From IMG/VR virus record IMGVR_UViG_3300030106_002954, positions 1-45,089 of that record: a stretch of DNA of 45,089 nucleotides, one strand, 5' to 3'. This DNA is from a virus. The translations under genes and the position numbers were made by a program. This document shows, piece by piece, positions 3,197-20,051 of the stretch (position 1 is the first letter of the stretch; the number at the start of each line of letters is the position of its first letter). Under the pieces are notes generated by a model. The model saw only the letters and a program-made list of their open reading frames with translations, did no database searches and was not told the DNA's origin.

Positions 3197-3603
3197 TGGT
3201 AGACCACCCAGATAAAGATACAGCAAAGCAAATAGTAGAACTAGATGACAGTAATATAGTTGTTAATGTCACTATTGGAGATAGTGATGCTTATGATAAA
3301 AAAGTAGCTGATAATCCTAGTAAGACTTATCTATTCCATGATATAGCTATGACAGGTTTTGGTTCATATCCTCTTAATGATACTGTTAGCATAGGTCACA
3401 GATGGGATGCAAGTAAATCAAAGTTCTTTGCTACTGATGAACAGAAAGCATTCGATACATGGGTGCATGAAGATGAAGCATCTGCAGGAACTGTTGTTCA
3501 ATGGGTTCCACCTACAGAAAAGCCTACTCCTCCAGAAGGTAAAGACTATTGGTGGAGTGGTGAAGTAGACGATTGGGTCTTAGAGGATTTACCCTCAGAG
3601 TAA
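3196..3603 (+). CDS. Hypothetical protein, possibly tail-fibre assembly
   Basis: 135 residues; the ATG overlaps the preceding stop by one base. It has an N-terminal beta-rich half (IVVNVTIGD), an acidic helical middle, and a C-terminal Pro/Trp-rich tail (PPEGKDYWWSGEVDDWV). That layout resembles tail-fibre assembly chaperones and similar proteins encoded after fibre genes. The gene follows the glycine-rich tail protein, which fits. No decisive motif is present, so the assembly role is a guess from layout and position. Confidence 0.55.
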   Translation: MVDHPDKDTAKQIVELDDSNIVVNVTIGDSDAYDKKVADNPSKTYLFHDIAMTGFGSYPLNDTVSIGHRWDASKSKFFATDEQKAFDTWVHEDEASAGTVVQWVPPTEKPTPPEGKDYWWSGEVDDWVLEDLPSE

Positions 3604-16696: not shown

Positions 16697-18235
16697 CTAT
16701 TGTAGTCGATTTAATTCTAATGCAAACCTTTTAACTTCATCTATATCAGCTAATCTAGTTATTCCATTTTGCTTCATAATCTGTTGACATTCTTGTAATA
16801 AGTTAATTTCATTATTATTTCCTAATCCAAATACATACATATCTGATACCCATATTCTTTTAGGAGGCATATTAGCTAACCATCGAAGTGCTGGTCCATC
16901 TACTAAGTTTCCACCACCAGAATGTTCTTCTAGATATTCTTGTGTAACTCTTTTACCATTCTTACCTATTATTCTTAAAGTACCAGAATTTCTACGAAAA
17001 CTTTTATGGTTATACATAGCTATAGTTACAGCTGGTAATTGTTGCATAATTTCAAGAATATCTTCTCCAGAAAAATTCATTGAACCTGATGCGTCAATTA
17101 ATATTGTTCCACCATATACTCTTTGGTTCTGTTTAAATACCTTCTTATCTACGCACCACCTATTCATATACTTAGGATTAGTTCCATAATCTTGAGGTCT
17201 ATATTTTCTACCTTGTTTAATTTGTCCTTGTAAATTAACCTCTCGTGGTCCTTCAATAATATCCATATTGCCCCACCTACCTTTATAACCATCTGCGTTT
17301 GAATAGTTTATTTTTCCCCTAGAACCTGCTCGCTGTATTCTATCAGCGAGTTCTTGTTTAGTTCTTTGTAATGAAGCTTCTAATGTATCTTGTTTATGTG
17401 AATTATAATCATCTCCATCACACTCTGGGTCTTCACAATCTTTATCTGAACATCTAGGTTTACTTTCAGACATATTAGCAAAAGAATTATTCTTAGCTTT
17501 TTGAGCTAGTTTCTTTTGTCTTTCTTTTTCAAGTACCTCTTCAGGTTCAGGACGTTCACTAAAATCATCTCTAAGAAGATTTAGTTCTTTAGCTACAACT
17601 CTAGTTTTTCTATAACTAGGTTTGTAATTATAAGATGCAGTACTACTCTTACCTTTTCTAACTAGCCTATTATAGAATTTTTTGTATTTAGATATACACC
17701 AATCTATTTGGTCTATTCTTAACCTTGTTAAAATTGGTTTTAATTCATCGTACAAATCTAGGAATTGCAAATACTCAGGATTATCAGGTTCATCTCTTTT
17801 GTACCATGTCGATGAGAATTCCTCTACTTTCCATGTTGAAGCTAATAAGTAACATATTATTTGAAATTGACTAGCTGTATATATTATTTGTAATGCTAAG
17901 TCCTTAGCTTTATCTGGACACATAACCCAGTCTTTTATACCCATACCTTTTTGAGCAAGTAAGAAACCTATCCTTGCTTCTTCAACAACTTCGACAGCTA
18001 CTTCTGATTCATCTTCTCCTAATTTACCCATAGTTTTTGGACTCCATTTAACGTGTCCAAGTTCATGTCTTCTTATTTGTTTATCATGATAATAGCCACA
18101 TAACATACATTTATTTCCAACAGGAACATACATTTCTTTTGATAAGTTAGAAGTTCGTGGTCGGTCAGTATCTTCAAATACTTTCCAACCACCTTCTCCT
18201 GATACTATTTCTGGAAATGGATATCTTTTATTCAT
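16697..18235 (-). CDS. CobT-like protein: zincin-like N-terminus plus VWA domain
   Basis: 512 residues. Near the N-terminus a CxxC (43-46) precedes RRHELGHVKW, where HELGH (57-61) fits the HExxH zinc-peptidase motif, followed by VEEARIG (~84-90), whose Glu fits the third ligand of gluzincins. The middle is helical and charged. A VWA domain starts at ~375 with TILIDASGSM, the MIDAS DxSxS (Asp381, Ser383, Ser385). Its upstream neighbour is a MoxR-type AAA+ ATPase. In such pairs the ATPase drives the VWA protein in metal insertion or remodelling of a target. Phage pairs are often named CobS/CobT, but no cobalamin role is implied here. Confidence 0.75.
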   Translation of the reverse strand: MNKRYPFPEIVSGEGGWKVFEDTDRPRTSNLSKEMYVPVGNKCMLCGYYHDKQIRRHELGHVKWSPKTMGKLGEDESEVAVEVVEEARIGFLLAQKGMGIKDWVMCPDKAKDLALQIIYTASQFQIICYLLASTWKVEEFSSTWYKRDEPDNPEYLQFLDLYDELKPILTRLRIDQIDWCISKYKKFYNRLVRKGKSSTASYNYKPSYRKTRVVAKELNLLRDDFSERPEPEEVLEKERQKKLAQKAKNNSFANMSESKPRCSDKDCEDPECDGDDYNSHKQDTLEASLQRTKQELADRIQRAGSRGKINYSNADGYKGRWGNMDIIEGPREVNLQGQIKQGRKYRPQDYGTNPKYMNRWCVDKKVFKQNQRVYGGTILIDASGSMNFSGEDILEIMQQLPAVTIAMYNHKSFRRNSGTLRIIGKNGKRVTQEYLEEHSGGGNLVDGPALRWLANMPPKRIWVSDMYVFGLGNNNEINLLQECQQIMKQNGITRLADIDEVKRFALELNRLQ

Positions 18236-18968
18236 CTTCTTCAGTAATTAAATCTGATTCATCTATATCATCAGATAACATTATTGCGTCTAATAAATCA
18301 TCGGACCTTTCTCCAAATATTAATAAGCCAGCTTCCTCTTTATCTACACCTTTAGCTATTAGTTCAAAGAATTCTCTCCAAGCTCTTACAGATAATCTTT
18401 CTTCTGTATCTTGTGATAAAGAAGTATCTTCAACTATCTTTTTCCAACTATCTGGAAATATTTCTAAGGCTTTTGGATGTACAGTATCTACATTAATCTT
18501 AACAGGGAACCTATCTTTAAGTGCCATTGGTAAGCTCTCAGGTAGAGAGTTTGTAGTAGCTATAACAGTAAATCCTTCTGCTGGTTTTACAGTTTCTTTA
18601 TTATCATTGTTCAATGTTAATTGTGCAATGTCTTTGTCATCTAATATAGCATGTAAGAATGTCATTGCGTCTGGAGATGCGTGGTCAATCTCGTTAATGA
18701 CTAACCTTCCACCATTACGCCATGCCTGGATAGCAATACCATCATGCCATTCAAAACCACCATCTGCACTTGGTTTATAGAAACCTTCCAAGTTAGCTGA
18801 AGCTGTATCTTCAGTCATGGTTATTTGATATACATTAGGGTCTCCGTCCATGTTATATCCTATATTATTTGTGGCTGCTGCATATGTTTTTCCAGTTCCT
18901 GGAGGACCATATAACAATATCCTATCTGCATTTCCAATAGCTGCAGCTACTAATTTCCAACAATCCAT
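18228..18968 (-). CDS. MoxR-type AAA+ ATPase
   Basis: 246 residues from the ATG at 18968, chosen because AAAGGAG lies 7 nt upstream and the ATG overlaps the previous TAA. Walker A is GPPGTGKT (21-28), Walker B LVINEID (89-95), sensor 1 ATTN, and an arginine-finger-type LKDRF follows. The acidic C-terminal tail (DDIDESDLITEEDE) may contact the VWA partner, whose gene overlaps by 8 nt. MoxR/CobS ATPases form rings that use ATP to remodel or insert cofactors into targets. The substrate of this pair is unknown. Confidence 0.85.
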   Translation of the reverse strand: MDCWKLVAAAIGNADRILLYGPPGTGKTYAAATNNIGYNMDGDPNVYQITMTEDTASANLEGFYKPSADGGFEWHDGIAIQAWRNGGRLVINEIDHASPDAMTFLHAILDDKDIAQLTLNNDNKETVKPAEGFTVIATTNSLPESLPMALKDRFPVKINVDTVHPKALEIFPDSWKKIVEDTSLSQDTEERLSVRAWREFFELIAKGVDKEEAGLLIFGERSDDLLDAIMLSDDIDESDLITEEDE

Positions 18969-19276
18969 TAAATGCTCCTTTCGTTGGGTATATAACGACA
19001 ATAGATATCTATCTCTCCATCATCGTTCTTTCTTTGTTTAATTTCGAATCTACCTTTATCAGCTAGATGTCGAATGTTTGTTTGTGTCATATTTTCTATA
19101 TTGGATTTGACACCTGATATCCAATTGTCTGTTGTAGCTATTATGTACCATTCTGTTGGTGTAGATAATAAAGTTTTTACTTTATTATCAGTTAATATTG
19201 TTGGTTGTTTACCACTTCTATTAACACCAGCTAATGGTGGTATAGCTCTAACTATCTTTGTCTTCTTTATTGTCAT
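18968..19276 (-). CDS. Hypothetical protein, paralog of the 20200-20586 product
   Basis: 102 residues. Shares with the product at 20200-20586 the stretches PT(I/L)LTD(N/D)KVxxLLS(T/K)P, MTQ(T/A)NIRHL and a C-terminal Y/ICRYIP-like end (IYCRYIP here, IYCRWLP there). The shared core is mixed alpha/beta, perhaps a winged-helix. They look like two paralogs kept in one operon. It directly precedes the MoxR gene. No family recognised. Confidence 0.6.
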   Translation of the reverse strand: MTIKKTKIVRAIPPLAGVNRSGKQPTILTDNKVKTLLSTPTEWYIIATTDNWISGVKSNIENMTQTNIRHLADKGRFEIKQRKNDDGEIDIYCRYIPNERSI

Positions 19277-19781
19277 GATTGTTTAACCAATTTTCTACAT
19301 TATCTCCTATACTATCTGCGTCTTCCATAACGTTATTAATAACTTTATCTCTAACAGTAACTTCGTTATCTTTTAGATATGCAGAGATTGAAGTTGGGTC
19401 ATTAAAGAAGAAGTCTGTAAATGCACCTTGGTCTATTAAATACTCCCTGAAACTCTCAACTGTTTCATAATCGTATCTATCTAGTTTATCTTCTTCTGAT
19501 GCCATATTAATTACCTGATGAAAACCAGTTAATACTTCCATCTTTCTAGCTGAATCTATTAATTTAGCTTGGCTTATTGCGTCCATAATAGTCATAGCCT
19601 CTACTTCGTATTTTGTAGATACTAATTCAGTATCATCTGGAAAATCTACTGTTTGACCTTTGAATAGATTATTCATTGTATCTTCAGTAAACCATACAAG
19701 TGTAACGTAGTATGTTCTTAAGTTCCTCGGACTAACATTAATCAATTCATGTAGTTCGCTTTGTTTATCTTCCTTATTCAT
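19248..19781 (-). CDS. Hypothetical acidic protein, 177 aa
   Basis: 177 residues from the ATG at 19781, with AGAAAGGAG as ribosome site; the longer open frame to 19868 runs through the tRNA-like element and is rejected. The protein is acidic and largely helical (for example TIMDAISQAKLIDSARKMEV near residue 72). Its end overlaps the following gene by 29 nt. No known motif. It starts 24 nt downstream of the tRNA-like element. Confidence 0.6.
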   Translation of the reverse strand: MNKEDKQSELHELINVSPRNLRTYYVTLVWFTEDTMNNLFKGQTVDFPDDTELVSTKYEVEAMTIMDAISQAKLIDSARKMEVLTGFHQVINMASEEDKLDRYDYETVESFREYLIDQGAFTDFFFNDPTSISAYLKDNEVTVRDKVINNVMEDADSIGDNVENWLNNHDNKEDKDS

Positions 19782-19805: not shown

Positions 19806-19882
19806 TGGAGGTGGGGGGAATCGAACCCCCGTATATAGATTTGAAAAGGGATTAACAAATCTATGCATACCTGGACACCCCC
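19806..19882 (-). ncRNA. tRNA-like element without D arm (resembles tmRNA tRNA-like domain)
   Basis: On the leftward strand: acceptor 5' strand GGGGGTG pairs all seven bases with CACCTCC (one G-U), then discriminator A. The T arm is GGGGG-TTCGATT-CCCCC, matching the T-loop consensus. There is no D stem: an 11-nt linker (TCCAGGTATGC) replaces it. Instead of an anticodon arm there is a 9-bp helix (ATAGATTTG/CAAATCTAT) with a 12-nt loop. No CCA is encoded. Acceptor, D-like linker, one long helix and T arm is the layout of the tmRNA tRNA-like domain with its P2 helix capped. Alternatives are an armless tRNA, a decoy, or a captured host tmRNA fragment. Confidence 0.6.
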
Positions 19883-19883
19883 A

Positions 19884-20051
19884 TGCTATTAATTAAATAA
19901 ATAGCACGCAACATATAAATTTTATAAGGGAAGTTCCATTAACCCACTTGTATTTTTTTCATCAATATACAAGAACCTATATGCTGCGTGCTATCTATTT
20001 TCAGTGACTAGTTCACAGGGCAGTTAACTAGTTCTTACTTATAGATAGCAC
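19884..20051 (-). ncRNA. Chain of mutually exclusive stems upstream of the tRNA-like element
   Basis: Four arms alternate in orientation. On the plus strand: TGCTATT (19884-19890), ATAGCACGCAACATAT (19901-19916), ATATGCTGCGTGCTAT (19979-19994, overlapping GTGCTATCTAT 19988-19998) and ATAGATAGCAC (20041-20051). Neighbouring arms pair with each other, so stems of 7, 16 and 11 bp compete. In the 16-bp stem the one non-Watson-Crick pair is A-C on the plus strand but G-U on the leftward RNA, favouring leftward transcription. A small inner hairpin (CTTGTAT/ATACAAG) sits in the loop. It could be an attenuator, switch or a separate RNA domain. Confidence 0.55.

Follow-up and report, generated by a model that had tools for sequence, protein, structure and literature searches.

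The window, by which we mean the whole stretch of 45,089 bases that was analysed, is a virus record with genes for a terminase and an SU10-type capsid protein, and it represents an AT-rich, uncultured phage without a close cultured relative. It contains a 77-nt RNA encoded in the same direction as the flanking minus-strand genes (Table 1). The preliminary description had placed a tRNA-like element at the same coordinates, which held, but had not given the strand, and the RNA was found to read on the minus strand. In RNA order, the element starts with GGGGGUG-UCCAGGUAUGC-AUAGAUUUG, followed by the loop UUAAUCCCUUUU and by CAAAUCUAU, and continues with AUAC-GGGGG-UUCGAUU-CCCCC-CACCUCC-A. The linker UCCAGGUAUGC contains a conserved GG and a G at a position comparable to that of G19 in the E. 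coli tmRNA.

Table 1. Features of the element and its immediate surroundings in the window. TLD, tRNA-like domain; nt, numbering within the RNA.
Feature	Position	Strand	Basis
TLD-only (tag-less) tmRNA, whole, 77 nt; 5' end 19882, 3' end 19806	19806..19882	-	RF00023 50.1 bits; model R1 35.1 bits
Acceptor stem, 5' strand GGGGGUG, nt 1-7, with G3 of G3·U70	19876..19882	-	sequence, fold
D-loop-like linker UCCAGGUAUGC, nt 8-18	19865..19875	-	element comparison
P2 helix, 5' strand AUAGAUUUG, nt 19-27	19856..19864	-	fold, covariation in relatives
Loop UUAAUCCCUUUU, 12 nt, caps P2 where tmRNA has its tag-coding and pseudoknot domain	19844..19855	-	sequence, Rfam, fold
P2 helix, 3' strand CAAAUCUAU, nt 40-48	19835..19843	-	fold, covariation in relatives
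AUAC linker, counterpart of GGAC	19831..19834	-	element comparison
T arm GGGGG-UUCGAUU-CCCCC	19814..19830	-	sequence, fold
Acceptor stem, 3' strand CACCUCC, with U70	19807..19813	-	sequence, fold
Discriminator A73	19806..19806	-	sequence
Next downstream gene, same direction, ATG at 19781, preceded by AAGGAG	19248..19781	-	sequence, ORF list
Two long hairpins in the leader directly upstream of the element	19895..20051	-	region fold z -6.6

Structure and class of the RNA

The MFE fold of the element (-30.1 kcal/mol, z = -3.7) was matched in stability by none of 200 shuffled sequences. It reproduced the architecture given in the preliminary description: all 7 pairs of the acceptor stem form, the T arm matches the consensus, a 12-nt loop closes the 9-bp central helix (P2), and both D stem and anticodon arm are missing. 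The third acceptor pair is the G3·U70 wobble, and the fold adds an optional 4-bp GUAU/AUAC extension of P2. The length of 77 nt was likewise as described, and the discriminator is followed by CAG, so that CCA is not encoded, also as described. A search for the combination of acceptor stem and T arm gave a single match in the window and none in 100 shuffles, which excludes chance, and the RNA structure of the element is near certain.

tmRNA is the bacterial RNA for the rescue of stuck ribosomes. The element matched the Rfam tmRNA family RF00023 with 50.1 bits (gathering cutoff 47, E = 5.8e-17), a match that required the deletion of 304 model positions covering the whole tag and pseudoknot region, and this was the sole family to reach its gathering score in the Rfam scan of the window. 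A covariance model built from the elements of other phages, with the window element left out (R1), scored it at 35.1 bits. Several features of tmRNA are present, namely the 7-bp acceptor stem, G3·U70, A73, the T arm, the P2 helix and the missing D stem. No reading frame for a tag, with its resume codon and stop, is present, 12 nt suffice to close P2, and no pseudoknots occur between the P2 strands; because there is no tag frame, the element was not classed as a full tmRNA. It is almost certainly a tmRNA-type RNA of the TLD-only kind. A capped mini-tmRNA was one of the options raised in the preliminary description, and it is strongly supported by the Rfam match with its middle deleted and by the compensatory changes in relatives and the large phage class presented below.

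Neither a normal tRNA nor a full tmRNA model covered the stretch in the ARAGORN and Rfam analyses, and ARAGORN reported 0 tRNA and 0 tmRNA genes over the window. A tRNA that has lost its D arm is an extremely improbable reading: the element of a close relative, L319, reaches 29.7 bits with the Rfam tRNA model (cutoff 29), but there is no anticodon arm of 5 bp and 7 nt, the length and loop of P2 vary widely among the elements, and RF00023 alone attained its gathering score in the window. A permuted, two-piece tmRNA was also rejected, as the halves are in standard order and RF04321 gave only a sub-threshold partial match of 21.2 bits.

Conservation and surroundings in related phages

Relatives of the window phage were chosen by their terminase and then searched with a covariance model that lacked the window element. 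Matches were obtained in L317, L319, L320, L322, L324, L331, L334, L335, L338 and L339, in all of which the element is located upstream of the terminase gene on the opposite strand. It was present in 6 of the 6 covered relatives with a terminase identity of at least 87% and in 4 of 9 with an identity of 79% to 82%, and was not found in the searched loci, within a 10-kb range, at identities below 75%. This patchy presence marks the element as accessory. No DNA similar to the window region was found in the phage collection.

The acceptor and central stems were kept in the close relatives, and the compensatory changes that the preliminary description had suggested looking for were found in all helices, as exemplified by an acceptor stem of GGGCGUG/CACGUCC compared with GGGGGUG/CACCUCC in the window. 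Among the 10 distinct sequences of the relatives, 93.7% of the cells pair, both sides have changed in 16 of the 23 pairs, and cells with changes on both sides number 51, compared with 16.3 in shuffles, in an alignment that was fitted to the model and thereby favours the structure of the model. The covariation signal was abolished when the pairing was slid. The element of L319 has A3-U70 in place of G3·U70, which indicates that alanylation is not strictly kept.

The gene immediately downstream of the RNA, whose mechanical ORF start at 19868 falls inside the RNA, is also located 3' of the element in several relatives (a cluster of 7 loci). With its start codon about 25 nt away, the element sits in the leader of this gene, and another structured RNA is located upstream, an arrangement that would be consistent with a cis-acting role, in which the fold would direct cleavage of the operon transcript by RNase P and RNase Z or regulate the downstream gene. 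We consider such a role quite unlikely, since the neighbouring genes differ across phages and since mere cutting would not necessitate the retention of G3·U70 and of the AC before the T stem.

The nearer of the two upstream hairpins (of the GCAACATATAGG...TTGC type) was kept in L317, L319, L320, L322 and L324. Rfam returned only sub-threshold, chance-like matches for the hairpin region. A different conserved RNA (AGGAGUACCGUGCAACUGGCAACAGUGGGUUGUACUCCU...GCACGGU), pseudoknot-like when read by eye, was located upstream of the element in L334 (positions 3312-3460, minus strand) and also in L335, L338 and L339. It was further noted that a gene for a MoxR/CobS-like AAA ATPase (18228-19001), which is conserved in relatives, is adjacent to a gene for a 512-amino acid phrog_33218 protein (16697-18235), both on the minus strand of the window, and that a CobT-like gene is located near the element in phages GiJojo and pSt2308. 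The Pfam matches of the 49 scanned window ORFs included SET-domain, staphylococcal-nuclease-like and ferredoxin-like proteins, and no SmpB was found among them. A promoter scan gave fewer sites than in shuffles.

Tag-less tmRNAs in other phages and in cellular genomes

Many unrelated phages were found, by pattern scans and with the covariance model, to encode tmRNAs of about 63-95 nt that lack a tag and consist of the TLD only; together these form a large class. The searches were based on a 3'-end pattern, on an acceptor stem and T arm at tRNA-like spacing, and on a dedicated pattern, the last of which gave at least 120 matches in viral contigs and thus suggests that further members exist. After removal of tRNAs, at least 118 distinct sequences of the main type remained, mostly 77-80 nt in length, and an automatic parse assigned 94 of 118 a P2 helix with an asymmetric, mostly A-rich internal loop and a cap formed by a 3-bp hairpin. 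The window element belongs to a smaller subtype, with the linker GG-N-N-N-G-C as opposed to GG-N-UUCGAC in the main type, and its D-loop junction does not take the UUCGAC/GGAC form found in the latter.

Across 101 aligned elements, 96.7% of the cells pair, changes on both sides were seen in 650 cells compared with 205 in shuffles, and the covariation score was 0.62 compared with at most 0.08 for slid pairings. An alignment of 28 elements of mixed length made with MAFFT (A1) was set aside because P2 was misregistered, and a uniform 79-nt subset (A2) was aligned in its place. An exact 3'-end scan for one T-arm type yielded 43 contigs, which by our own reading contained 8 TLD-only, 22 full one-piece and 13 other forms; in a second T-arm scan, biased in that its query was taken from a TLD-only sequence, 16 of 19 were TLD-only. 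Clustering of 142 elements by their gene neighbourhoods gave clusters that track phage lineage and no shared partner gene among them, and the neighbours vary across phages, with capsid genes, helicase/primase, endonuclease VII and tRNA arrays among them.

Cultured carriers are the Streptomyces phages GiJojo, pSt2308, BRock, Alone3 and Shaeky and the Stenotrophomonas virus Jojan60. None of these six records annotates the RNA as such, no full-length tmRNA was found elsewhere in them, and the elements tested were missed by ARAGORN and called tmRNA by Rfam. They lie inside or adjoin tRNA genes, in Shaeky between those for tRNA-Phe and tRNA-Leu, and small hypothetical ORFs overlap them in GiJojo and Jojan60. 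The element is rare in cellular genomes: a scan of about 85,000 species with the dedicated pattern found 6 loci. Four of the 6 assemblies contained a full tmRNA of roughly 370-400 nt on another contig, with scores of 116-141 bits, and a fifth gave a weaker match to full tmRNA.

tmRNA genes are common integration sites, and the element might represent a fragment of a host tmRNA or the remnant of an attachment site, as the preliminary description had also proposed; a weak TLD-like match at the annotated attR of OQ658364 could be taken in its favour. This reading is already contradicted and highly improbable. The 5' acceptor strand is present and not the 3' end alone, P2 and acceptor covary across phages with compensatory evolution in every helix, the element is a separate gene at the tRNA arrays of cultured phages, and in the Mycobacterium assembly, which contains both, the mini form is clearly distinct from the full host tmRNA. 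Furthermore, no integrase was found among the PHROGs and Pfam matches listed for the 49 window ORFs (25 of 35 for PHROGs).

Several other RNAs were observed in the course of these scans. The match in the Pseudomonas phage OQ658364 (L398:1985-2054, 32.8 bits), which overlaps the attR, may be a true attachment-site fragment. Unannotated permuted tmRNAs were found in Pseudomonas phage SM1 (L397:3922-4313, about 54019-54410 in the record; RF04321, 118.6 bits), for which ARAGORN gave the tag ANDTSFDVRLAA, and in Synechococcus phage S-CRM01 (L406:1958-2179; RF01851, 74.3 bits), the latter of the cyanobacterial type. In one viral contig, a Pistol ribozyme (L027:5916-6012, minus strand; RF02679, 50.7 bits) and a TLD-only tmRNA are about 2.2 kb apart.

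Putative function and comparison with known systems

G3·U70 is the alanine identity pair and is read by AlaRS. In a scan in which the acceptor was not fixed, 63 of the 65 distinct elements in which 6 or more acceptor pairs form had G3·U70, and A73 was found in 67 of all 68 elements. The acceptor pairs 4-6 were variable, with compensation, and the retention of G3·U70 and A73 next to them argues for selection for recognition by AlaRS and for alanylation. The AC before the T stem, which corresponds to A334-C335 in E. coli, occurred in 42 of the 43 elements whose retrieval did not depend on it, with the caveat that they had passed a filter model built from seeds with AC. In E. coli tmRNA, A15, U17, G19 and A334 contact SmpB (PMC8363625), and the same paper cites a crystal structure of the ribosome carrying SmpB, EF-Tu and a fragment of tmRNA. 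The RNA thus retains the features that AlaRS and SmpB read and has dropped the coding of the tag; alanylation and SmpB binding are predicted from this comparison of identity and contact nucleotides.

We propose that the element is a phage TLD-only tmRNA, with P2 capped by a short loop, that acts as an alanylated, SmpB-binding decoy and blocks trans-translation (probability about 0.55). The RNA would be transcribed with the flanking minus-strand genes, trimmed by the tRNA-processing enzymes of the host and supplied with CCA. G3·U70 and A73 would then be recognised by the host AlaRS, leading to alanylation, and the charged RNA would be bound by SmpB and EF-Tu, as is the host tmRNA, and compete with the latter for SmpB, stalled ribosomes or both. 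Without a resume codon or tag, trans-translation would be stopped or diverted, and phage products would be neither tagged nor degraded. That the element acts in trans on the SmpB and trans-translation pathway is probable; that the net effect is inhibition is a somewhat more cautious suggestion.

According to PMC4131195 and PMC11915505, which cite Mao 2009, tmRNA in E. coli is inhibited by the TLD-only RNA of mycobacteriophage DS6A or by a molecule like it, whether or not the RNA can be charged, perhaps via titration of SmpB. The natural A3-U70 in L319 fits this inhibition by an RNA that is charged or not. Together with the kept AlaRS and SmpB features, the DS6A result favours a decoy, which is the best-supported function among those suggested in the preliminary description, although it leans on that published result.

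The main rival is an RNA that rescues ribosomes without tagging: the charged RNA and SmpB would take over the stuck peptide and help to free the ribosome or the peptide untagged, so that phage proteins are spared and ribosomes recycled, as proposed for mitochondrial tmRNA lacking a tag frame. The retained charging and SmpB-contact features would serve this purpose equally, and tag-less mitochondrial tmRNA persists with SmpB (PMC11915505). The element has neither a resume nor a stop codon with which to end synthesis, however, and the sole tested analogue inhibited tmRNA according to PMC4131195 and PMC11915505, and we consider a rescue RNA unlikely. The position of elements inside or next to phage tRNA arrays would also be compatible with a decoy for AlaRS, EF-Tu, the CCA enzyme or tRNA- or tmRNA-cleaving defence nucleases of the host. 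The tmRNA-specific GG loop, AC/GGAC and P2 exceed what AlaRS or EF-Tu would need, and there is no anticodon arm for anticodon nucleases, which makes these targets very unlikely.

More than 100 distinct sequences from many phage lineages, under strong structural selection, make up the class. There is an even chance, in our estimation, that tmRNAs that lack a tag and have a conserved, capped P2 form a widespread group of phage non-coding RNAs that has been overlooked and whose evolved role is to disarm or reprogram host trans-translation, which would make ribosome rescue a common point of conflict between phage and host. If the class does block trans-translation, ribosome rescue would be a routine phage target, and the cultured carriers make such a block testable at once. 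The class also supplies natural minimal candidate ligands of SmpB, and annotation based on ARAGORN overlooks it. The breadth of the class, the capped P2 and the occurrence in Streptomyces and Stenotrophomonas phages were unreported in the mostly open-access literature searched.

TLD-only phage tmRNA is an already published kind, of which DS6A is the sole named phage member in the literature found, and the window element is therefore a further member. Like the RNA of DS6A, which is likened here from its description in PMC4131195 and PMC11915505 (Mao et al. 2009) as a reported inhibitor of endogenous tmRNA in E. coli, it is phage-encoded, tag-less and consists of little beyond the tRNA-like domain, with P2 as the only addition. 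Of the 97,179 sequences in a 2025 tmRNA database, only 9 of the standard form have no tag (PMC11915505). With bacterial tmRNA (RF00023) the element shares the G3·U70 acceptor, A73, the T arm, the GG-containing D-loop-like linker and P2, but it lacks the tag frame, pseudoknots and resume codon and measures 77 nt compared with about 350-400. The tag-less tmRNAs of mitochondria and Mallomonadaceae plastids are similarly reduced and without a tag frame (PMC11915505), but serve the ribosomes of their own organelle, whereas the phage gene occurs alongside a host tmRNA. The permuted two-piece tmRNA known from Melnitz and other marine phages is likewise a tmRNA gene in a phage of an aquatic bacterium (PMC9004378), but it carries a complete tag in a permuted gene, whereas the window element is in standard order with only P2 between the acceptor strands.
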